Assembly (NCBI GenBank): GCA_907165275.2
Contig: OU015669.1
Coordinates: 2,192,501 to 2,256,500 of the forward strand
Direction: 5' to 3'
DNA from: Zygaena filipendulae
Taxonomy: Eukaryota; Arthropoda; Insecta; Lepidoptera; Zygaenidae
DNA length: 64,000 nucleotides
Shown: positions 8,456 to 61,212 of the stretch, piece after piece
Numbering within the stretch: the stretch's first letter is position 1
Layout: the number at the start of each line of letters is the position of its first letter
Made by a program: the position numbers and the translations under genes
Notes under the pieces: model-generated
Databases searched by the model: none
What the model was told of the DNA's origin: nothing
What the model saw: only the letters and a program-made list of their open reading frames with translations

Positions 8456-8665
8456 CAGTGTTGCCGTTTTAGCTACTTTGTAGCTAGATCTAGCGGATTT
8501 TGAACGTATTTAGCTACTTGAATTGATCATGGTTTCATACATTTTAGCTACTTATTATTACTTAATGCTCCATACATTTAGCTTCATTTCAGCACAAAAT
8601 TACATAAACTGGCAACTTTTACGACAGATTTAGCTACTTTAATACCAACTGAGACGGCAACACTG
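8456..8665. mobile_element. hAT-type MITE, 210 bp, with perfect 8-bp target duplications
   Basis: The ends are CAGTGTTGCCG and its exact inverse CGGCAACACTG. Flanking copies of GAAGAGAC at 8448-8455 and 8666-8673 are identical, the 8-bp duplication expected for hAT transposons. CAGTGTTGCC is a common hAT terminus in insects. The inside has further inverted pieces containing TTTAGCTACTT and no coding capacity. Confidence 0.9.
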
Positions 8666-8774
8666 GAAGAGACAAACAAAGACAGTCGCTCCGAATTACT
8701 CGCCGCTGCTACACGTTTCGTCATTACTCTCGTTAACCAACTTCTCTAGTTCATTCTCTAGTGTTTTGGAGATA

Positions 8775-9872
8775 ATGCCGCGTTTAACTGAATTCCCGCC
8801 GGCACACATCGCTGATATTGAGTTTTATTATGGAATGGCACGAGGTAGAGCCAGAGCCGCTCACACTGCTTACGTAGCTGCGTTTCCTAACAGGCGACCG
8901 GTGCCATCTGCTCGGAACTTCCAAGAAGTCCACCGAAGATTATGTATTGTTGGACTTGGATCAAATGCCAGAGACCGCCGCGAGTCTGAAGTGATTATTG
9001 ATGTGTCTGTCGAACAAGCAGTACTGAGGGATTTGTTTGCTGATCCAACCATTAGCACCAGACGTCTAGCTTTGAGACATGGAATATCGCAAAAATCAGC
9101 GTGGCGTATTTTAAAAAAAGAAGGTCTGCATCCTTATCATTATCAGAGGGTGCAGCACTTACATGAAGAGGTAGACTGCCGTCCAAGATGCGTTATGTCA
9201 ACATGGATTCTGTCAAAAACTAGACAAAACCCAAACTTTCCAAAAAAAATTTTATGGATGGACGAGTCAACATTTACAAGGGATGGTATAACCAACTGCA
9301 GAAATTTGCATAAGTGGTGCCCTAAAGGTGAAAACCCAAAGTTGAAAAGATCTTCAACGTTCCAAGTGAGATATTCAGTAAATGTTTGGGCTGGTCTCAT
9401 TGACGACATTTTGCTTGGACCAATAATACTGCCGGGAACATTAACTGGTGAAAGGTTTTTAACGCTTTTACGCGAAGAACTACCTGAATTGCTGGCAGAT
9501 GTCCCACTGGCTTTGCGCCGAAGAATGTACCTACAAATGGATGGATGTCCTGCTCATTATGCAAGTAATGTAAGATCATTTTTAAATGAAATTTATCCGA
9601 ACCATTGGATTGGCCGGCAAGGACCTGTGGGGTGGCCTGCGCGTTCACCTGATATGACGCCCCTCGACTACTTTTTATGGGGTACAATGAAACAACGCGT
9701 CTACAATTCCCCAATCAACAGTGAAGCCGATTTACAAGATCGCATAATTAATTGTGCACATGATTTAAAAAATGATCGCGAGATGATAAGAAGAGCGACA
9801 CAACAAATCGTTCTTCGCGCTACTATGTGTCTGCAAACAAGAGGTGGACATTTTGAGCATTTAATGCAATAA
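8775..9872 (+). CDS. Intact Tc1/mariner-superfamily transposase, DD41D type
   Basis: The ATG at 8775 gives a 365-residue protein, the usual length for IS630-Tc1-mariner transposases. The N-terminal third is a helix-turn-helix region (TRRLALRHGISQKSAWRILKK). The catalytic domain shows D in ILWMDESTF, D in YLQMDGCPAHY (codon at 9540-9542) and D in TPLDYFLWG (codon at 9666-9668). The last two are separated by 41 residues, giving DD41D rather than DD34D (mariner) or DD34E (Tc1). Proteins of this shape are often labelled DUF4817 or Tc3-like in insects, and DD41D groups with the rosa-type lineage as far as I recall. No stops or frameshifts are seen. Clear terminal inverted repeats were not found by eye, so whether the element can still move is open. 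A degenerate relative is at 21545-22075. Confidence 0.85.
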   Translation: MPRLTEFPPAHIADIEFYYGMARGRARAAHTAYVAAFPNRRPVPSARNFQEVHRRLCIVGLGSNARDRRESEVIIDVSVEQAVLRDLFADPTISTRRLALRHGISQKSAWRILKKEGLHPYHYQRVQHLHEEVDCRPRCVMSTWILSKTRQNPNFPKKILWMDESTFTRDGITNCRNLHKWCPKGENPKLKRSSTFQVRYSVNVWAGLIDDILLGPIILPGTLTGERFLTLLREELPELLADVPLALRRRMYLQMDGCPAHYASNVRSFLNEIYPNHWIGRQGPVGWPARSPDMTPLDYFLWGTMKQRVYNSPINSEADLQDRIINCAHDLKNDREMIRRATQQIVLRATMCLQTRGGHFEHLMQ

Positions 9873-17339: not shown

Positions 17340-18929
17340 ATGACTACCATGGCGTCTCCGAAGCCCCAGTCTTCGAGTTCCGCTGAATCGCCTGAAAAGT
17401 TGAGTGAAGTGCAAGTGTTGGACTCTGTTGAGCCGCTTGTTACGGCCTCCTTTTCAGTGCCTTTGTGTAGTGCGCAAGTGATGGACTCTAGTGAGCTGCT
17501 TGTGCCTACTTCGCCTGCTGGTCCTAGTGGGATGGCTGGTCTTAGTGGGATCGCTGGTCCTAGTGGGATGGCAGATCTCGTCATGCCAGTTTCCACATCA
17601 TCTGAAGACTTGCATGAGCCAGCAACCCCTTCTGGTTCATCGGGAAGGCGAGTCCATTATTACCCGGAAGAGTTGAGGTTAGTAGGCTAAAGTTTAGAAT
17701 CATGCCCAACAATTTTAACTACTTAGCCACAGATACCAAAGCGGGGGGGCGGGGGGGGGGGGCGCAGCCTCCCGCCAAAACAAAAACAAACACAATCCAG
17801 AAAGTCCAAAAGTAGGTTAGGTTAGGTTGGAACGTAGACCACAACACCCAGAAATAGGAGCCCCGCGTAGCGGGGCTCCGTCAACTGATAATTGAAGCTA
17901 GTTGTGCCATATTGAGGGTCATTGGTCTCTAGGTATGGGACGGATGGTATGAGGTAGCTTTCTCTTTCAACTTGTCATTCAACTTGCTTTGTTTTTGTTT
18001 TAGGTCGATGTGGAACTGGAAAAAAATCTTCACAAGACTTGGGACGGTACAGCAGTGTATCCAGTTTGCTGAGGAGAGAGGATTTATTCCTAAGCAGAAA
18101 ATGTGTTATATACACCACAGGCCAATGACGCTGTCTACCGAAACCCAGTTTGGCAGATTCCGCTGCAGAAAGAGCAACTGCAGGAACAGGAGTGTGAGCC
18201 GGGTACAAGGTACCTGGTTTGAAAATGTGAGGTTATGCATCACATTAGTATTTCAAATAATGTATGCTTTTAGCGAGGGCTTGTCTTATATGCAAGTACA
18301 AAAACAACTTGCTTCCGAAGATGAGCCTGTGATTTCCATGAAAACCGTGGCAGACTGGTACAGCTATTGCCGAGAAACAATTGTTATTTATGAGCTGGAA
18401 AATAACCAAGCAAGTGAGAAAATAGGAGGACCCGGAAAAATAGTACAAATAGATGAATCCAAATTCGGCAAAAGAAAATATAATCGTGGTCGACAGATCG
18501 AAGGTCATTGGGTGATAGGGATGATCCAAGATGGGATCGATGATCTTCGGCTGGAAGTGTGTCCTGACAATGAGAGGTCTGCGGAAATATTGGTGCCACT
18601 CATCAAGAAGCATGTTCAGGAAGGTTCTATCATCCATACTGATTATTGGAGAGCTTACTTGAGCCTTCCTGAGCATGGATATACACATAAGAGGGTGAAT
18701 CAGTGATCCCACAAACAAATTTGTGGCACCAGATGGGACACACACGCAGCGCATTGAGAGCCAGTGGAGGGGATTGAAAAAACAATTCAGGCAGGAATAA
18801 AATAAAGCAGATTTCACGGATTGGCTGTGCGAATACCTATGGCGGCGAAAAATAAGGGTCAACCATACCGATCCATTCGAAGAACTATTAAAGGCAATTA
18901 AATATGTGTATGTGGACAATACAAATTAA
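17340..18929 (+). pseudogene. Merlin-superfamily (ISXO2-like) transposase, copy 2, spliced and broken
   Basis: Exon 1 runs from an ATG at 17340 (or the better-context ATG at 17349) to 17677, encoding a low-complexity serine/proline/glycine-rich N-terminus with a repeated G-P-S-G-M-A unit. A donor (GAG|GTTAGT) at 17678 and an acceptor (TTTTAG) at 18003 define a 326-bp intron; joining is phase 2 and gives R-S-M-W. Exon 2 has the cysteine module, then D in QIDESKFGKRKYNRG, D in TDYWRAY, and, after a two-base loss near 18705 that creates a stop, E in HTQRIESQWR. A further TAA interrupts near 18800. The part matching copy 1 is clearly homologous (IGGPGK, QIDESKFGKRKYN, LRLEVCPDN). There is no intron at the KYNKG position where copy 1 has one. 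Confidence 0.8.
17678..18003 (+). other. Intron of Merlin copy 2 with a G run and a GC hairpin
   Basis: The intron contains GCGGGGGGGCGGGGGG near 17742 and a perfect palindrome GGAGCCCCGC-GTA-GCGGGGCTCC at 17857-17879. The phrase ACCCAGAAATAGGAGCCCCGCG before it recurs almost exactly at 19287-19308, so a repeat may have inserted into the intron. Confidence 0.65.
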
Positions 18930-25016: not shown

Positions 25017-25109
25017 AACTCTTTGGCTGTAGAATGCAGTTTGTTTCATCTGACTGTCTTTTGTTTTTACCTTGTGGCGCCATTTAAAAAATTGTGTGTC
25101 TGCATCAAC

Positions 25110-26162
25110 ATGGATTTAACTCGGGAAAATTTTCGTAGTATGATTTTCTACGATTTTAAGTGTAATTTGACAGCTCAACAGAGCATCGCTCGGCTTGAAA
25201 CAGCTTTTGGCAATGAAGCACCATGCAAGACAACTGTTTATAGCTGGTTTGCAGAATTCAAGCGTGGTCGTATCAATCTCAGTGACGAATCTCGCGATGG
25301 TCGGCCGTCCACCGCTGTGACCAATAAAAACATCGATGCTGTGCGCCGTATGATTGAAACAGACAGGCATGTGACCTACCATGAAATTCGCGCATCCTTA
25401 GAAATAGGCATGAGTCAAATACAATTAATCCTACACAAACATTTGGGTGTGAGAAAGCTGTGCTCGCGGTGGATCCCACACAACTTGACTGAGGCTCAAA
25501 AAACGGACCGCGTCACTTGGTGCAGTGCCATGCTTACCAGATTCAACGAAGGTGCGTCAAATTTGGTGTGGGACATAGTAACAGGTGACGAAACATGGAT
25601 TTATTGCTACGATCCCAAAACAAAGCAGCAATCGAGCGTATGGGTCTTTCAAGATGAGCCGAAACCAACCAAAGTGGCGCGCGTGAAAAGTGCATCTAAG
25701 CGGATGATTGCTTCTTTTTTTAATAAAACTGGACACGTGGCTACTGTTGCTTTAGAGAATCGTCGTACAGTGAATAGTGACTGGTACACGACCATTTGTT
25801 TGCCGGAAGTTATTGACGAACTCCGTAAAAATAACCTTAAACGCCGTATCATCCTGCACCACGACAATGCTAGTTCTCACACGGCCAGACAGACAAACGA
25901 CTTTTTGAAGGCGAAAAATGTAGAACTCATGAGTCATCCTGCATACAGCCCCGACCTGGCACCTTGTGACTTTTTTCTGTTCCCAAAAATTAAGAACCAA
26001 TTACGCGGTCAACGATTTTCATCACCAGAAGAGGCTGTCGAGGAGTATGAGAAACACGTTTCAGAGGTCACCACAGAGGAGTGGCACAAAAGTTTTCAAA
26101 ACTGGTTTCATCGAATGAAAAAGTGTATTTTGAAAAACAATAAATTAATTTTGTACCTTTAA
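25110..26162 (+). CDS. Intact mariner transposase (DD34D)
   Basis: The ATG at 25110 starts a 350-residue protein close to the 345 residues of classic mariner transposases. It has the paired helix-turn-helix N-terminus (SIARLETAFGNEAPCKTTVY, then a second in VTYHEIRASLEIGMSQIQLI), the linker WIPHNLTEAQ (family WVPHEL), the first catalytic D in VTGDETWIY, the second in LHHDNASSHTA and the third in YSPDLAPCDFFLF. The second and third are 34 residues apart, giving DD34D. No stop or frameshift is seen. Upstream ATGs exist in frame but add non-family sequence. With both terminal repeats present, the unit could have been mobile fairly recently. Confidence 0.93.
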   Translation: MDLTRENFRSMIFYDFKCNLTAQQSIARLETAFGNEAPCKTTVYSWFAEFKRGRINLSDESRDGRPSTAVTNKNIDAVRRMIETDRHVTYHEIRASLEIGMSQIQLILHKHLGVRKLCSRWIPHNLTEAQKTDRVTWCSAMLTRFNEGASNLVWDIVTGDETWIYCYDPKTKQQSSVWVFQDEPKPTKVARVKSASKRMIASFFNKTGHVATVALENRRTVNSDWYTTICLPEVIDELRKNNLKRRIILHHDNASSHTARQTNDFLKAKNVELMSHPAYSPDLAPCDFFLFPKIKNQLRGQRFSSPEEAVEEYEKHVSEVTTEEWHKSFQNWFHRMKKCILKNNKLILYL

Positions 26163-27254: not shown

Positions 27255-27612
27255 ATTTGAGGCATATAGAATCAAAGGAAGCTAAGCGCCACACTTTCAA
27301 AAAATCAACTAAGTATGGAGCCATCTAGGGAAATTTTGGTTGCAACTCTTTACTTTATTATTGTAAGAAACAAATACAGCTCAAGCCCTTTAAATTTCGT
27401 TCAAAAATGGATTTTGGGATCAAATACAGCTAAGTCACCTTAGGTCACAATCAAAGACAGCTAGATGATAAAACAACCAATCACAACGCTTGAATTCTCG
27501 AAAACAAAATGGCGATTTCTGTACAATTGCGTTAGCCACACCTAATATTTTTTATTGTATTTTTAGTGTTTTTAGTGAGTTCTCGTGCAAAATTTGTTGT
27601 GAAACGATTATT

Positions 27613-30600
27613 ATGGAGGTCCCTGTAGAACCGGCAAGTACTGGCAGAGGTCGAAAACGCACACGAAACCCAGAAAACTGGAAGGCAAACATTGCTAAGA
27701 GAGAAAGGTTAGTGATGTGCCTCGCGTCTACATTCCACACAATGTATAGATAAAGATAAATAATTGCTATCGAATTAAATTAATTTTTCGCAATATTTAT
27801 TTTTGCATGTATTGCTATGTACCATAACGCTAATACTACCTAACTGTAGCTAAAATTGGGCTAAGATAGAGAAGTTTGAGTGTTGAAAATATTTATTGTT
27901 GTTTTTATTTTAATTTTTATCTCCCAATAATGTATTTTATTTATATTACTTATATTTTTTGCTATAAATGCAAACCTACCTACAAGTACCAGTAATATAC
28001 CTTCTAAGAATATGTACTAACTAAGTAGTATGTTTAATAACTACCCTTTTTTTCGTCAGGGGTTAAGTCCTTTACAGGTTCATTGTTCCTAACTAATTTT
28101 TTTTTTTCACAGATACTCCTCAACTGCTTTACCTCAAAGAGTGAACTGTTCACATAAAAACCCAACACTAAAATGTGCAAGCCTGACAATGAACGAACTT
28201 CTAAAATTTTACCAATCATTTTATGCCTCAAGAAAAAAAAGCTTACAAGATGCTTTTCTTCTTAAGTGCTGCCAAATAAAACAAATTAAAAGGAGGCGTC
28301 CTAACCAAAATAAAAGGCTTAGAAGAGATTTTAATATCCAGTACAGGATTTTGAACAGTCAAAATAAATTTGTGACTGTTTGGCAAAAATTTTTTTTAAG
28401 TTCCTTGCAAATAAAAAAGTATAGAGTGGAATTTGTTATGAAGGTGTTTTACTATACGGGACAGTTTGCTAAAGAAAACAGGGGAGGAAACCATAAAATA
28501 AACAAGTATAGAGAGCAAAAAGATATAGTTCGGCAGTTTATTAGTAAGTTAAAATGCATAGAATCACATTACTGTCGATCTGCAACACAAGAGCGAAAAT
28601 ATCTGCACAGCGATTTGAGTATAAACAAACTTTATAAGATGTTCAAAACCGAATATCCTCAATCTGTTGTAAAGAAGTCTTATTTTCGTGCAATATTCAA
28701 CCAATATTTCAATTTAGGATTCGGTAATCCGAGAACAGACGTTTGCTCAAAGTGCATTGAGTTGGATGGGAAAATTAAAATGGAAAACGACCGAGAAAAA
28801 AAGAAACACCTCATGATCGAAAAAAGAGTCCATAAGCTCAGGGCAAAAGCATTCTTTAAATTGCTTCAGGAAAAATCAGAAGATATGATTACTTTCTCAT
28901 TTGACTGTCAAAAAAATAATCCCCTACCCAAAGTACCCGACCAGAGCGCATACTACAGTCGCCAAATATATCTTTACAATTTTACGATTGTTCAGGGTTC
29001 TTCTAAAGATCACCTGAATAAAGACACAACTTATGCATATTTGTGGACAGAGAACGAATTTCCAAAAACATCCAACCAGATAGCCTCTGCAGTGTACGAC
29101 CGTTTAAATAAAACTAATTTTGAAGGGATTAGTACTGTTCGTCTTGTAGCTGACGGATGTGGCGGGCAGAACAAGAATAGCATATTGCTATGTATGCTGT
29201 CAAGATGGCTTCTCGACAACATGTCTCTGAAAACAGTTGAAGTCGTTTTCCCAATTACTGGGCATTCTTTCATGCCGCCAGACCGAGTTTTCGGAAACAT
29301 TGAAAAAGTACTTAAAAAACAAGAAGTAATCATTCGACCTGAAGATTACATAGACATCATTGCAACAAATGCAACGGTTACAAAAATGCGTGACATTCAT
29401 AGTCCATTGAAATGTTACATTTTTTAGGCCTTACCTTGCGTTTTTTAGAGGACGCAATTTTATTTTTTTGATGTGTAGGGGGGGGGTCAGTGTAAAGCTA
29501 AAACCAAGTTTGTGGGGTCGCCACCCTTGTCCCACGGCCGCCATCTTGAAAATAGGGGTTGGAATGGTTTTTACGGTATATCTCTTAAACTATTTATTTG
29601 AGAAAAAAATTTGTTAATATTTTTTGTTGCAAATTAAATTCTCTACAACTTTGGTCCAGTAACTTTTTATCGTAGAACTATAAATAAAAAAGTTATAAGC
29701 GAAAATCTTCAGAAATTCGAGAAAAAAATTTATATTTTTCGATGTAACTTTTTTTTTAATCATTTTACGAAAAAATGATATCTGACCACTTTTGTAGATC
29801 GTTTTTTGAGGAACAACTTTTATTTGCATCATTTTTTCATTAAGTCAATAGCTAAGGTTTCACAGCGCTCCGAAGTGAGTACTATTTTTTAGTACTCTTA
29901 ACTATACCTATATTATACGTGTGTACTAATAATATGTCATCAGTTATTTTTTTTTTTAAATTTTATTTTTACTTTGTTAATATAATTTTTTTGATTATTA
30001 ATTTTGCAACATTATTAAAAATTAATTATTGACTCTTTTTCACTCCATAACAGAATTTAATTTAAATCACCGTGGATTATGCCTATTGGGGATACCACGT
30101 AAAAAAAAACGCGCCTCTAGACTCTACCTCGTAGCTGGTGGGGAAAAGAGTCAATAATTAATTATTAATAATATTGCAAAATTTGTAAAAAAAAAAAAAA
30201 AATGACTTAGACTTCACTTCAGTAGTGCCGCAAAAGATGTTCTAAAACCGACTGCGAGATGGCCTTTTAAAATGGTGAATGCAAAAGATTCATTTTGAAG
30301 AGATCCAAGACTGTTGGAAATGTGCTTATTCGTGGAGAACTGCATTTTAATTCAGATACAGGTAAAAAAGTAAATCTTTGCAAAACTGGAATGAAAACCA
30401 ACATGATTCTCCCATCCACCGTGCCACTAGGAGCACCCATGAATCGTGCAAAAATAACAGATGTCGATGCACTATTAAAAAAGCATTTTGGCGCTGAATG
30501 GGAAACCAATGCAGAATGTCAATTTTATGTAAATATTATAAGATCGCCAGTTATTCAGGAGAGGGAAGAGGAAGATGATAATGAAAACTATTGTGAAAGT

Positions 30601-30630
30601 AGGGTTGATACGGTGGATTTAAAAATTTAA
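27613..30630 (+). CDS. DUF7869-type (possibly Sola-like) putative transposase, three exons, 3' part damaged
   Basis: Exon 1 (27613-27707) encodes RGRKRTRNPENWKANIAKRE, a basic motif I recognise from the N-terminus of insect DUF7869 proteins. A donor AG|GTTAGT and an acceptor TTTCACAG at 28112 join in phase 2 to exon 2 (28113 to about 29400). Exon 2 has a lysine-rich helical region, a zinc-like pair (DVCSKCIEL), MITFSFDCQKNNPLPKVPD, YLWTENEFPKTSNQIASAVY, VRLVADGCGGQNKNSILLC and FPITGHSFMPPDRVFGNIEK. The aspartates in FSFD and VADG and a glutamate near NIEK are candidate DDE residues. The last exon, from about 30222 to TAA at 30630, has WPFKMVNAK and, after a one-base frameshift near 30283, LIRGELHFNSDTGKKV and an acidic tail. 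The donor of the second intron was not found and a MITE lies in that intron, so this copy may be inactive. Confidence 0.7.
30001..30182. mobile_element. MITE, 182 bp, with about 39-bp inverted repeats
   Basis: ATTTTGCAACATTATTAA at the left and its inverse at the right continue through TTAATTATTGACTCTTTT on both sides, with only two differences over 39 bp. The insert sits in the presumed second intron of the DUF7869-type gene. Flanking duplications are hard to read in the A/T-rich context. Confidence 0.75.
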
Positions 30631-30931
30631 CTTTTGTGTTTGTTGACAAAGAAGAAACAACTGATTGAGTAATAAGAAAAGTTTTAAGTTCATAAGAATA
30701 GAATATTGTTCCTAAAAGAAAAGAAAAGTCTGATTAAAATAAGCAAAAGTGTTTTTAATTTGGTTACAATTTTGATTAATTTTTGAAATTTTGTAAAAAA
30801 TTTAAATATCTATATGAAAACGTGTTTTAATTACTGGTCCCTGATATCGACCTCTGTTGGGAACATCACTATCATTGTGATGTCAATATGGCGCCAGTCA
30901 TTATCAAAGACAGCTAGGTTCACTTGAGTAA

Positions 30932-31365
30932 AAATCAAACACAGCTAAGTGTAGCTGTTGGTATCAAAGATAGCTAAGTCGTTTGATTTTTTATTTATTT
31001 TTTGGCTTATTATTTAGTACTCATAGATAAAGGTGGCCAAAACCAATATAAAATCACATAATCTTAAATAATATCTCAGAGAGTATGAAAGCCCCTGACT
31101 CTTAAATTAGAAAAACGTTTTTTTCGGTTCTTGAAAATTTGACATAGAAAATCAAACACAGCTAAGTGTAGCTGTTGGTATCAAAGATAGCTAAGTCGTT
31201 TGATTTTTTATTTATTTTTTGGCTTATTATTTAGTACTCATAGATAAAGGTGGCCAAAACCAATATAAAATCACATAATCTTAAATAATATCTCAGAGAG
31301 TATGAAAACCCCTGACTCTTAAATTAGAAAAACGTTTTTTTCGGTTCTTGAAAATTTGACATAGA
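30932..31365 (+). repeat. Two tandem 217-bp copies at the right subterminal region
   Basis: The segment starting AAAATCAAACACAGCTAAG and ending GAAAATTTGACATAG is present at 30932-31148 and 31149-31365 with almost no differences, each carrying two copies of the subterminal motif. The duplication is recent. Confidence 0.9.
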
Positions 31366-31401
31366 GGCACTTAGCTACCTTTGATTCTATATGCCTCATT
31401 T

Positions 31402-56866: not shown

Positions 56867-57955
56867 TTAACTTGTATCTTGATTTATCAGGCTATAATTG
56901 CAATCAACAATGGGCCGATTATAAAAATTTGCGAAGATTGCCGATTGGTCTGTCCAACCAGCACATCTTCTGATTATATCAACGCTTATGCCAGACTGCC
57001 GAGCTGCCGAAGTAGACGCATGGCGGGTGCTGTGAGCACCAAATATAGTTGTATCAATACCACTAGATTGTAAGGTTTGTTTTATCCAGCGTCCAATAGT
57101 CTGGGCAGAGGCAGCCTAATATGGTTTTTTACAGGTAAGTAGAAGTTTTACTTCTGCTGTCGATCTTCTGGAGGAAGATGCAACTAAATAAGAGTTTAAG
57201 GTAGCTGCTGGGCAAATACTAGGTCTGTGAGTGAAAAAAGGCAAACATAAGGTTGGTTGTGAACGCCCTATGCCAGAAGTTTTTAGCAAGTCTGTTATTA
57301 TTATAACTATCTTGTCACTGTAAAATTTAATGTTGGGGATTTTAATGAATGACAATGTTTGTATTCTTTGCCCAGTTGCTAAGGCTAACAATACAACTAA
57401 TTTCTTACTTAAATTTTCAAAACACAAGGATTCGTTAGGATATAACTTATCTAGATAATCTAAGACATAATTGGGGTTCCATGTAACATTATAGCGAGGA
57501 AATACTGGTTTTATTCTGAAAACTCCCCTAAAGAATCTTTTAATCCTAGTGTCTTGACTAATATTGTTAGATGAGATCAGTGAAATGGCAGATCGGTGAT
57601 TATTCAGTGTCCCATAAGAAGAACCTTCATTTAGACATTTAGTAAGGAAGTCAAGTAAGTAACTAATATCAACATTGAAAAAATCAAGATTTTTAGCATT
57701 GCAATATTCCCACCATTTTTTTAAACTACTTGAATATTGAGATTTTGTGTTTTTGGATACAGAAGACAACATAACGTCTATTGCCGTCGTTGGGATTCCC
57801 TGTTTCAGGAATCCTTCCCTGATAACACAGCCACTGCCAGGGAAAGGTGACGATGTAGTGGGTGAACAGGTCTGAAATGAGATGAAAGGAGAAATTTGTT
57901 TGGGGCTAAAACTAAGATATCGCTTATGCAAAGAGAGATAAAAAGGGGGTACCAT
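56867..57955 (-). pseudogene. DIRS tyrosine recombinase with one in-frame stop
   Basis: From the ATG at 57955 the protein has the SAM-like N-terminal helices (SVSKNTKSQYSSSLKKWWEY), then the catalytic domain with the first arginine in ALATGQRIQTL. The frame stops at TAG 57116-57118, just after TCKKPY; reading on in the same frame gives the H-x-x-R box AHSTRHA, the G-W block CAGWTDQSAIF and the nucleophilic tyrosine in FYNRP, ending at TAA 56867-56869. So a single nonsense change separates this copy from a full-length enzyme of about 362 residues. The 5' end overlaps the RT frame by about 150 bp. Confidence 0.85.
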
Positions 57956-59700
57956 GGCTGCGATGGCCAGTAGGGTACTACAACAATTCCCGTCGCATGA
58001 TCAGTTACAATTTTATTTAAGGTCTTTAATACCATTGCGAAGGGAGGAAAAGCGTAAAAGAAATCACTATGCCAGTTTACTGTGAAAGCATCAATATTGT
58101 AAGCAAATGGGTCTCTTTTCCATGATATGTACTTAGAACATTTTGAATTGGCACGAGAAGCAAAGAGATCAATATCTGGAACACCAAATCGGCTAACGAT
58201 TTTTGAAAATGCGATTGCACTAATCTCCCATTCTGTGTCAACATTAAGCTTTCTAGATTCTTGGTCCGCTTCTATATTTTGTGAGGATTTAATATAGGAA
58301 GCAAAAATAAAGATTTTCCTTTCTTGACACCATTCCCATATAAGCTTAGTTACATAATTTAAGTGGGGGTATTGAATGCCACCCATTCTGTTTATGTAAG
58401 AAATAGCAGTTGTGTTGTCGATTCTTAAAAGTATCTCACAATTGGTTTTTTGTTTCGCGAATGATCTTAATCCAAAGTAGGCTGCCAGCAGTTCCAAATA
58501 GTTTATGTGATGTCCGCGTTCGATTTCAGTCCACAGACCGCCAGTTTTTTGTCCTTGACAAAAAGATCCCCAGCCGGTTGTAGATGCGTCTGTAAATATT
58601 TCGAGTGCATATTCGTTTTGTCGAATAGGGCTGTCACCGAATACGAGGTTGTGTTTCCACCAATTTAACTCATCACAAAAACTGCTTGGAATCTCCATAA
58701 ATTTATTAAAATTACCACTGTGGTTAAGTAATGCTAAGTATTTACTTCTTTCAAAAGATTTAGTGTAAAGCCATCCGTAAGCGATTGCTGGGCAAGCCGC
58801 AGTCAATGCGCCCGTGAAACGAGCAAAATCTCTAATACGTATGTTCTTCTTTTGCTTTATGTGTTCAAGAATTAGTTCTATTCGTTCAGTTATATTCTTT
58901 CTTTTTTTATCGGGTAGTTGCAAAACCATTTTTTCGGAATTTAAAATGAAGCCTAAGAAGGTGCATGACGTATCAGGAACCAAGTTACTCTTTTTGTAGT
59001 TAATTACAAAACCTAAATTTGCGAGACAACTTATAGTCTCGTTAACATTCTCGCAACAACCGTTAAATGATTTATGTATACACAAAAAATCGTCTAAGTA
59101 CTGAACCGATGTGAAACCTCGTGACCTTAAATGTGTCATGACGGGTTGGAGAATTTTAGTAAAAATATAAGGGGCCGAACACAGACCGAAAGGTAAGACG
59201 GTGAACTCATAAAGGATTCCGTCATAATGAAATCGAAGATATTTTCGGTGACTAATATGAATAGGCAACAAAAAATAAGCTTCTTGTAGGTCAATATTGG
59301 CCATATAGCAATTTCTACTAGCAAGACGAGTCGCAGTTCTTATATCTTCCATTTTAAAATGATCACAATAGATATTTTTATTAAGGTTTTTTAGGTTTAA
59401 AATAAAGCGCATGCTACCGTCTTTTTTAGGAATGAGAAAAATATCAGAGATAAACTGCCCCTGAATTGGTTTACATTTAGTTATAGCCCCAATTTGTAAT
59501 AAGTGTGTTAGCTGTTTTTTCAGCTCTATTGTTTCATTAACAGAAAAGATTCGATGAGGATAAAAATTGTCAGGCTGTTTAGGTATTTCAGTAAATGGAA
59601 TCCTATACCCTGTTATTGTGTTCAGTATAAAATTATCGTCTGTAATTGATTTCCAGGCTGGTAAAAAATATTGTAAACGTCCAGCATGTACCTGGGTTTC
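57805..59700 (-). CDS. DIRS reverse transcriptase, RNase H and C-terminal methyltransferase-like domain
   Basis: The first ATG of the open frame is at 59412, but the frame is open and family-like upstream (QFISDIFLIPKKDGSM and earlier) to about 59700, overlapping the end of gag, so expression by frameshift or a downstream start is likely. RT shows RFILNLKNLN, NIDLQEAYFLLPI and the catalytic box QYLDDFL (YLDD). RNase H follows with EIFTDASTTGWG, a catalytic glutamate in INYLELLAAY and RIDNTTAISYINR. The C-terminal part has DIDLFASRANSKCSKYISW, DAFTVNW and FYAFPPF, the conserved region usually called DAM-like methyltransferase in DIRS1-type elements. Intact over its whole length. Confidence 0.87.
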   Translation of the reverse strand, partial: ETQVHAGRLQYFLPAWKSITDDNFILNTITGYRIPFTEIPKQPDNFYPHRIFSVNETIELKKQLTHLLQIGAITKCKPIQGQFISDIFLIPKKDGSMRFILNLKNLNKNIYCDHFKMEDIRTATRLASRNCYMANIDLQEAYFLLPIHISHRKYLRFHYDGILYEFTVLPFGLCSAPYIFTKILQPVMTHLRSRGFTSVQYLDDFLCIHKSFNGCCENVNETISCLANLGFVINYKKSNLVPDTSCTFLGFILNSEKMVLQLPDKKRKNITERIELILEHIKQKKNIRIRDFARFTGALTAACPAIAYGWLYTKSFERSKYLALLNHSGNFNKFMEIPSSFCDELNWWKHNLVFGDSPIRQNEYALEIFTDASTTGWGSFCQGQKTGGLWTEIERGHHINYLELLAAYFGLRSFAKQKTNCEILLRIDNTTAISYINRMGGIQYPHLNYVTKLIWEWCQERKIFIFASYIKSSQNIEADQESRKLNVDTEWEISAIAFSKIVSRFGVPDIDLFASRANSKCSKYISWKRDPFAYNIDAFTVNWHSDFFYAFPPFAMVLKTLNKIVTDHATGIVVVPYWPSQPWYPLFISLCISDILVLAPNKFLLSSHFRPVHPLHRHLSLAVAVLSGKDS

Positions 59701-59714
59701 CTGGGCTTGTAGAT

Positions 59715-61212
59715 TTATGTTTGGTGGCGGCTGTGCGACGATGACCCTCGCGTCGCCTGTGGCGGCGGTTGGCGCCGGGGTGGTGGTGGCGGTGGCCGAG
59801 ACGGTGGCGGTGGCGGCGGTGGCGCTTGACGCCTCGCTTGCTGCTGTGGAGGTCGAAATTTGTTTGCATAGAAAGTTCTCTGCCCACCGCCTCTGAACGA
59901 GTAAGATCGATTGCCCCGCTGGGAGCCGCGAGACGATGGGCCCCTCCAGTTTAAATTTGTTCCAGACGTACCCGTAGATTGCATCATTTGCCCGGTTTTT
60001 TTAATGCTCTTTGTTGATTTAATAGTTTCGCTCAACTTCTCACCAAAGAGAAAGTTATCTCTCTTACTATTTTTTATGGGTTCAGACAAAGACTTGTCTA
60101 AGAGAGGTAATACGATTGTACGCCGTGTGTCCGTTTCGTCATAATGCGAGTGTGCTAGCATTTTTCCGGCGTCATTCAAGAAACGTATAGATTCGGGTAT
60201 ATCCGGATTTTTCTTCACCAAAATTGTTAATGCCTTACCAATGGCAGTCAGAGACTTACCAATAAAGTCTTGTTTTAATAATATTCTTTTATCCCTTAAA
60301 CTATACTTTTCGATAAGGATGGCGTTTATCTCCGGATTCATAATTGGAGCTTTGCAAAAGGGAACGTTTTCGGGAAATAAATATTTTTTCTTAAGAATCT
60401 CCTTATCTTCCTTTTTTAGTCCGTTTTGGAGTATATGTTGGAACCGCTTAGCCAACTCCTCATGGATTTTTTCACCCCATTCTATACTCTCGGTTTCGTA
60501 TTCACCAATAAGTTTTAACATATCGGCGTCAATATCCGTCTCAGAAGTTTCAGTTGCTTCAATCTCCGGTACTAGTACGTCGGAAGCTACCGGTTCGTCA
60601 GGAGCAACAGGTGTTACCTCGCTATCGAGAGTAAAATTTTGATCTTCGAGCGGTATTTCATTTTCCAGAGGAACTGGAAGGTAAAAACAATTGTATCAAA
60701 ACTAGCAAAAATATCTGGCATAATGTGGGTAGTACTGATAAAGAACAGTATTTAACTCAATAACTCACTAGCGTCATAAAATGACGAACTTATTTTTATA
60801 GTTTGTGCCTACCCTCGTATGAGTTAAGGTGCCAAAAGGCAAGGTTGTAAATCAGTAATAATAATCAATTGAAAAAACACTGATAAAAAATACAGAGTGG
60901 CCAAAGTGCCAAGTATTGTGCCAAAAGGCAAGGGTTTGTGCCGAAAGGCAAGTTTGTGCCGAAAGGCAAGGTAGCCGCAGATTAATATCGCGTATCAACT
61001 CTGAGCAAGACTTCTGTCCTATATCTCGTATAGGATCTAGGCAAGTTTATAATAAATTATTGTCACTAACCATTGAGGTGTATTCCTTCTTCGTCGCTTG
61101 AATAAATGATTGCTGCATGATCCTGTTTCTGTCTTTTTTGCAGTTTATGTTCATATTTTCTTAGTTTTCTTCGCCATTTGTCTTCTTTGTCTTCAATTTT
61201 TCTTTTCGGCAT
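59715..61212 (-). CDS. DIRS Gag, two exons
   Basis: Exon 1 (61071-61212) starts MPKRKIEDKEDKWRRKLRKY and ends at a CAATG|GTTAGT donor. Exon 2 (59715-60673) follows a CTTCCAG acceptor. Joining is phase 1 and gives 1,101 nt, 366 residues plus stop. Exon 2 begins with an acidic linker and then shows a conserved helical region (WGEKIHEELAKRFQHILQNG, LLKQDFIGKSLTAIGKAL, HSHYDETDTRRTIVLPLL) seen in DIRS Gag proteins, then an RG/proline-rich C-terminus (RGSQRGNRS, PPPPPPPSRPPPPPP) likely to bind nucleic acid. The 397-bp intron has four copies of GTGCC(A/G)AAAGGCAAG. Confidence 0.82.
60828..60971. repeat. GTGCCRAAAGGCAAG repeats within the DIRS gag intron
   Basis: The 15-bp word GTGCC(A/G)AAAGGCAAG is found near 60831, 60918, 60937 and 60955, the last three nearly in tandem with a 17-19-bp period. 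Each contains the small palindrome GCC-AAAA-GGC or GCC-GAAA-GGC. Confidence 0.75.

Follow-up and report, generated by a model that had tools for sequence, protein, structure and literature searches.

The described DNA transposons whose traits come closest to the element reported here are those of the Sola superfamily, which have a transposase with a catalytic site of three aspartates (DDD), generate 4-bp target site duplications (TSDs), are mostly 2-9 kb long and carry terminal inverted repeats (TIRs) of 11-1124 bp (PMC10741241), with AWWT target sites given for the Sola2-type elements of dictyostelids (PMC3627910). A DDD triad is also a property of mariner-like elements (PMC4054914), and the TSD is TA in Tc1/mariner and TTAA in piggyBac elements (PMC5199201). 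Here we describe an element within a 64,000-nucleotide stretch of the Zygaena filipendulae genome (C20:2192501-2256500, referred to as the window), which was compared with 366 Mb of genome sequence in 56 contigs. We are confident that it is a cut-and-paste DNA transposon in degenerate form, carrying a gene for a DUF7869-type DDD transposase, and that it most likely belongs to Sola or is a close relative.

The ends of the element agree with an earlier sequence-only reading of the window, which had described 32-bp TIRs identical at 30 of 32 positions and a perfect ATTT at both edges (Table 1). The element is 4139 bp long, a nested piece and a 217-bp duplication included. In a scan for TIRs combined with equal 4-bp flanks, it scored 23 of 24; with 3 kb on each side considered, scores of 21/24 or better were obtained for 1 of 156 unrelated left/right pairings and for 5 of 13 true pairings, that of the window included. 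Flanked by ATTT, it fits neither the TA of Tc1/mariner nor the TTAA of piggyBac elements.

A search of the genome with the window protein gave 49 matches, some being fragments of one locus. We inspected the 19 larger stretches for ends, the remaining short loci carrying too little flank to judge, and found both TIRs and identical 4-bp flanks in nine of them (L029, AAAT; L030, ATAT; L034, TATA; L035, ATCT; L036, TACT; L037, ATAG; L039, ATAT; L040, ACCA; and L044, AATT) and one end only in L031, L033, and L041. With L023 (ATAT) and the window (ATTT) added, equal flanks are present in 11 of the 14 elements that have both ends, or in 9/12 when L037 and L044, whose TSDs came from a scan requiring equal flanks, are left aside. 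The TSD scan also flagged positions 154-8754 of L042 (22/24, TGCA) and low-complexity pairs in L044, which differ from the ends assigned here. L029 and L030 are 99.8% identical as far as their TIRs and differ outside them, which is a mark of recent movement. Ten other families of DUF7869-type proteins have copies that are at least 96.7% identical at two or more places each, one pair among them (L045/L046) possibly reflecting a longer duplication. The genome holds several recently moved DUF7869 families, and these relatives of the window element suggest that DUF7869 acts as the mobilising enzyme of such elements.

The protein itself matches PF25273 (DUF7869) with 37.7 bits at a gathering cut-off of 26, and P0005 and nine paralogues from the same genome all match this Pfam family as well (L037, L039, L044, and L047 were assigned by protein match, the Pfam scan covering the ten proteins just named). 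The FSFD, VADGCGGQNKN, and GHSFMPPDRVFGNIE blocks reported previously were all found. Six of the listed homologues were aligned with ten own-genome paralogues; all three aspartates are invariant across these 16 proteins, and a later glutamate, which the sequence-only reading had taken as the third residue of a DDE site, is replaced by threonine in the L035 paralogue. A pattern search detected a GHSxxPPD-type motif in 233 of the 240 listed homologues (seven lack it), with the aspartate present in 231 and the glutamate in 226; at least one of the two aspartate exceptions is a false match of the pattern. In the predicted structure, Asp 422 is residue 3 and Glu 429 residue 10 of a helix, and by analogy with known integrases we expect the catalytic residue near the helix start. 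Because of this conservation and position, a DDD site with the aspartate of GHSxxPPD as its third residue appears more likely than a DDE site.

The model predicts an RNase H-like integrase/transposase fold with a five-strand central sheet and with the acidic residues located in strand 1, behind strand 4, and in the helix that follows; the core whose absence had been named as an outcome unfavourable to a transposase is therefore predicted to be there. The top structural neighbours of this core in Foldseek are retroviral integrases, and the core of the Mos1/mariner transposase is also similar, although identities in the listed rows are 8-16%, the matches extend over the core only, and the 4-bp TSD differs from TA. 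Taken at face value, this ranking would favour a retroelement integrase, or another nuclease with an RNase H fold, over the transposase of a TIR element. We consider this exceedingly improbable, given that inverted repeats and 4-bp TSDs delimit the units and that a Pfam scan of the ten proteins, the part of each unit that was searched, revealed no reverse transcriptase. Based on the fold, the triad, and the mobile relatives with TSDs, the DUF7869 protein is very probably the transposase of the element. Of the original proposal, the DNA transposon and, very probably, its DUF7869 transposase are thus retained, the intact copy is not, and the DDE triad appears less likely than DDD. Further searches gave no match at an E value of ≤0.001 in a viral structure library, two chance-level matches only between a profile of alignment A1 and Protein Data Bank sequences, and 29 stretches in viral contigs that fitted a pattern, none of which was confirmed.

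Several observations weigh against this interpretation. At up to three mismatches, the genome yielded no other element bearing the window's TIRs at its two ends: besides both ends of the window element, the TIR pattern matched only two isolated ends, each with three mismatches. Our confidence is slightly reduced for this reason. A search for further copies, proposed in the sequence-only reading, did recover closely related TIRs: the related pattern has 15 matches in the genome and none in a reversed control. Five of these places were inspected (L048-L052), and only two have both ends clear, neither with equal 4-bp flanks, namely L050 (285 bp, flanked by ATAT and ATAC) and L051 (269 bp); the second end of L048 is degenerate, and L049 and L052 have one end. 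These places look like old nonautonomous relatives. Among the DUF7869 relatives, L032, L042, and L047 have both ends and unequal flanks (3/14), and no end was seen in 4 of the 19 larger stretches (L038, L043, L045, and L046). The full structural model had no Foldseek match at an E value of ≤0.001, and the list for the core also includes terminases, RuvC, and ribosomal proteins. Finally, a whole-element DNA search did not detect a second copy of the window's coding part beyond a piece with 64% identity. This last result, and the fact that the named homologues are mostly uncharacterized, hypothetical, or unnamed insect proteins, would also fit a gene that was domesticated by the host or captured as a passenger, with the TIRs belonging to an element moved by another enzyme. 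Such an origin is nevertheless very unlikely, as several of the ten families with nearly identical copies lie inside TIR-bounded units with TSDs and the protein combines an integrase-like predicted fold with a conserved triad; a host exon picked up by chance, considered earlier as a way in which the proposal could fail, is contradicted by the presence of such a gene in other mobile elements.

The nearest named proteins come from moths and butterflies, the highest identity (94%) being in a partial match to Mythimna loreyi that covers 57% of the query. A 40-protein tree was built from the window protein, 14 own-genome frames, and a subset of the listed homologues (25 of 240); in it, the window protein pairs with P0001 (support, 100/99), and the pair lies within a window-type clade comprising 18 rows (100/100). 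Within the genome, its highest-identity relative is L044, with 56% identity over one part and 40% over another, an element with GAGGGGTGTAAAAGCAAA ends. In precomputed annotation, P0160 and P0165 have DUF7869 joined to an OTU cysteine protease domain (PF02338).

The sequence-only reading had named Sola as the nearest superfamily by TSD length and size, and every trait that we compared agrees with the published ones: a 4-bp TSD, a DDD site as judged from conservation, and a length of 4139 bp and TIRs of 32 bp that fall within the published ranges. The TSDs ATTT (window), AAAT, and ATAT fit the AWWT sites of dictyostelid Sola2, but only 5 of the 11 matching TSDs overall do so. Since this placement is by traits and not by sequence comparison, which is a further point against it, we call the element Sola-like only, most likely a member of Sola or close to it. 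It is conceivable, in line with the candidate new or poorly described lineage put forward in the sequence-only reading, but in our view rather doubtful, that the DUF7869 transposases, or the window-type clade, form a superfamily distinct from Sola and all other named ones, with TIRs starting with GAGG or C and often AT-rich 4-bp TSDs, and share with Sola only the TSD length and the DDD site. In favour of such a separation, no Pfam transposase model scored above its cut-off in ten proteins and no NCBIfam model did so in five, weak transposase-type matches being confined to one paralogue (HTH_Tnp_Mu_2, E value of 0.021; IS481, E value of 0.023), and the branch leading to the window-type clade is long (1.96; support, 100/100). 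In addition, DUF7869 and PF25273 are absent from the literature searched. IPR057191 and the protein motif strings are absent from it as well, and the literature on Sola and on new superfamilies with such TSDs yielded no transposase sequence. Sola is not known to have a Pfam model, however, and the missing Pfam match therefore says little; together with the agreement in published traits and the AWWT sites given for dictyostelid Sola2, this leads us to retain Sola or a close relative as the preferred assignment.

The window copy is degenerate and unable to encode a whole transposase, and it could at most be mobilised by the enzyme of a relative. The sequence-only reading had described it as complete, with one spliced gene. 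The spliced first exon was supported by homology (residues 1-34 of P0005 match 27613-27714 at 74% identity in tblastn), with splice bases read from the sequence. The single intact gene had to be given up because the gap at 29399-30196, tried as a second intron and rejected, is a nested repeat, as judged from other genomic copies, its arms, and homology. This stretch belongs to a repeat of which over 20 further copies exist, and it sits in coding sequence; all but 4 of the 127 matches in the whole-element DNA search lie around it, at about positions 2122-2940 of the query. Seven other copies that were measured are 1.3-1.9 kb long, begin with TAGTCCATTGAAA, and have 3-bp TSDs in 7/7 cases; the repeat has TAGTCC ends and inverted arms of about 630 bp. 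In the window, this repeat has kept its left arm, and the right one is reduced to about 62 bp. Downstream, homology to P0005 continues at 30212-30286 in frame 3 and at 30277-30558 in frame 2, and the 217-bp tandem duplication lies near the right end.

Table 1. Features of the element, in window positions
Feature	Position	Strand	Basis
Left TSD, ATTT	27255-27258		Read from sequence
Left TIR, starts GAGGCATATAGAATCAAAGG	27259-27290	+	30/32 identical to right end
Left subterminal ATCAAA..CAGCTA motif copies, resembling inner TIR	27414-27464	+	Repeat families D2, D4
Transposase gene exon 1, MEVPVEPASTGRGRKRTRNPENWKANIAKRE	27613-27707	+	tblastn homology; donor GTTAGT at 27708 read from sequence
Predicted intron	27708-28112	+	GT donor and CACAG acceptor read from sequence; P0005 homology restarts at 28111
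Exon 2, first part, with DUF7869 match and catalytic core	28113-29398	+	Pfam and homology
Codon of predicted catalytic Asp 1 (FSFD)	28903-28905	+	Invariant in alignments A2 and A3
Codon of predicted catalytic Asp 2 (VADG)	29152-29154	+	Invariant in A2; at least 90% in A3
Codon of probable catalytic Asp 3 (GHSFMPPD)	29281-29283	+	A2, A3, motif count
Codon of alternative Glu	29302-29304	+	Thr in L035 paralogue
Nested right-truncated repetitive element, ~630-bp arms, TAGTCCATTGAAA ends from 29400, interrupting gene	29399-30196	+	DNA search, arm comparison, copy ends
Remaining coding sequence, frame change near 30277	30212-30630	+	Homology; frame ends at 30630
Right subterminal ATCAAA..AGCTA motif copies	30897-30980	+	Repeat families D2, D4
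Perfect 217-bp tandem duplication (30931-31147 = 31148-31364)	30931-31364	+	Repeat family D1
Right TIR	31366-31397	-	Repeat analysis of window
Right TSD, ATTT	31398-31401		Read from sequence

The termini, TSD, gene, predicted fold, triad conservation, and mobile relatives being observed or computed, we infer catalysis, binding sites, and an excision pathway of the following kind. A single gene would have encoded a transposase of about 600 residues, with an N-terminal part that contains conserved Cys and His residues and may bind DNA, followed by a catalytic domain of RNase H-like fold that bears the DDD site and is covered in part by the DUF7869 annotation. The transposase would bind the TIRs and perhaps also the subterminal ATCAAA..AGCTA repeats, which are putative binding sites. 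The three aspartates would hold metal ions for excision of the element, reinsertion would occur at cuts staggered by 4 bp, frequently in AT-rich sites, and gap repair would leave the 4-bp duplication.

This proposal gives a testable function to DUF7869, the Pfam description of which assigns none and the matches to which cover only part of the catalytic domain. The named homologues listed are insect proteins, and insect proteins with DUF7869 that are listed as uncharacterized are probably transposases, to be treated therefore as repeats and not as host genes. Several families, with nearly identical copies and open frames (for example that of L029 and L030), are candidates for activity tests. 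Should the group prove separate from Sola, it would represent an unnamed superfamily.

DUF7869 matches cluster at C20:1.87-2.22 Mb, C23:2.90-3.26 Mb, and C42:0.39-0.92 Mb, perhaps in transposon-rich heterochromatin. The window also contains other mobile sequences. Upstream of the element, a 381-amino-acid open frame (25017-26159) matching DDE_3 and HTH_48 (Mos1 type) encodes a mariner-like transposase, and two more transposase frames match DDE_3 (8643-9869) and an ISXO2/IS1595-like domain (17933-18703), the latter of which we take to be Merlin. On the minus strand, at 57116-60695, there are adjoining reverse transcriptase, Dam-like, and phage-integrase-like matches, the Dam score being under the Pfam cut-off, an arrangement like that of DIRS-type retroelements.
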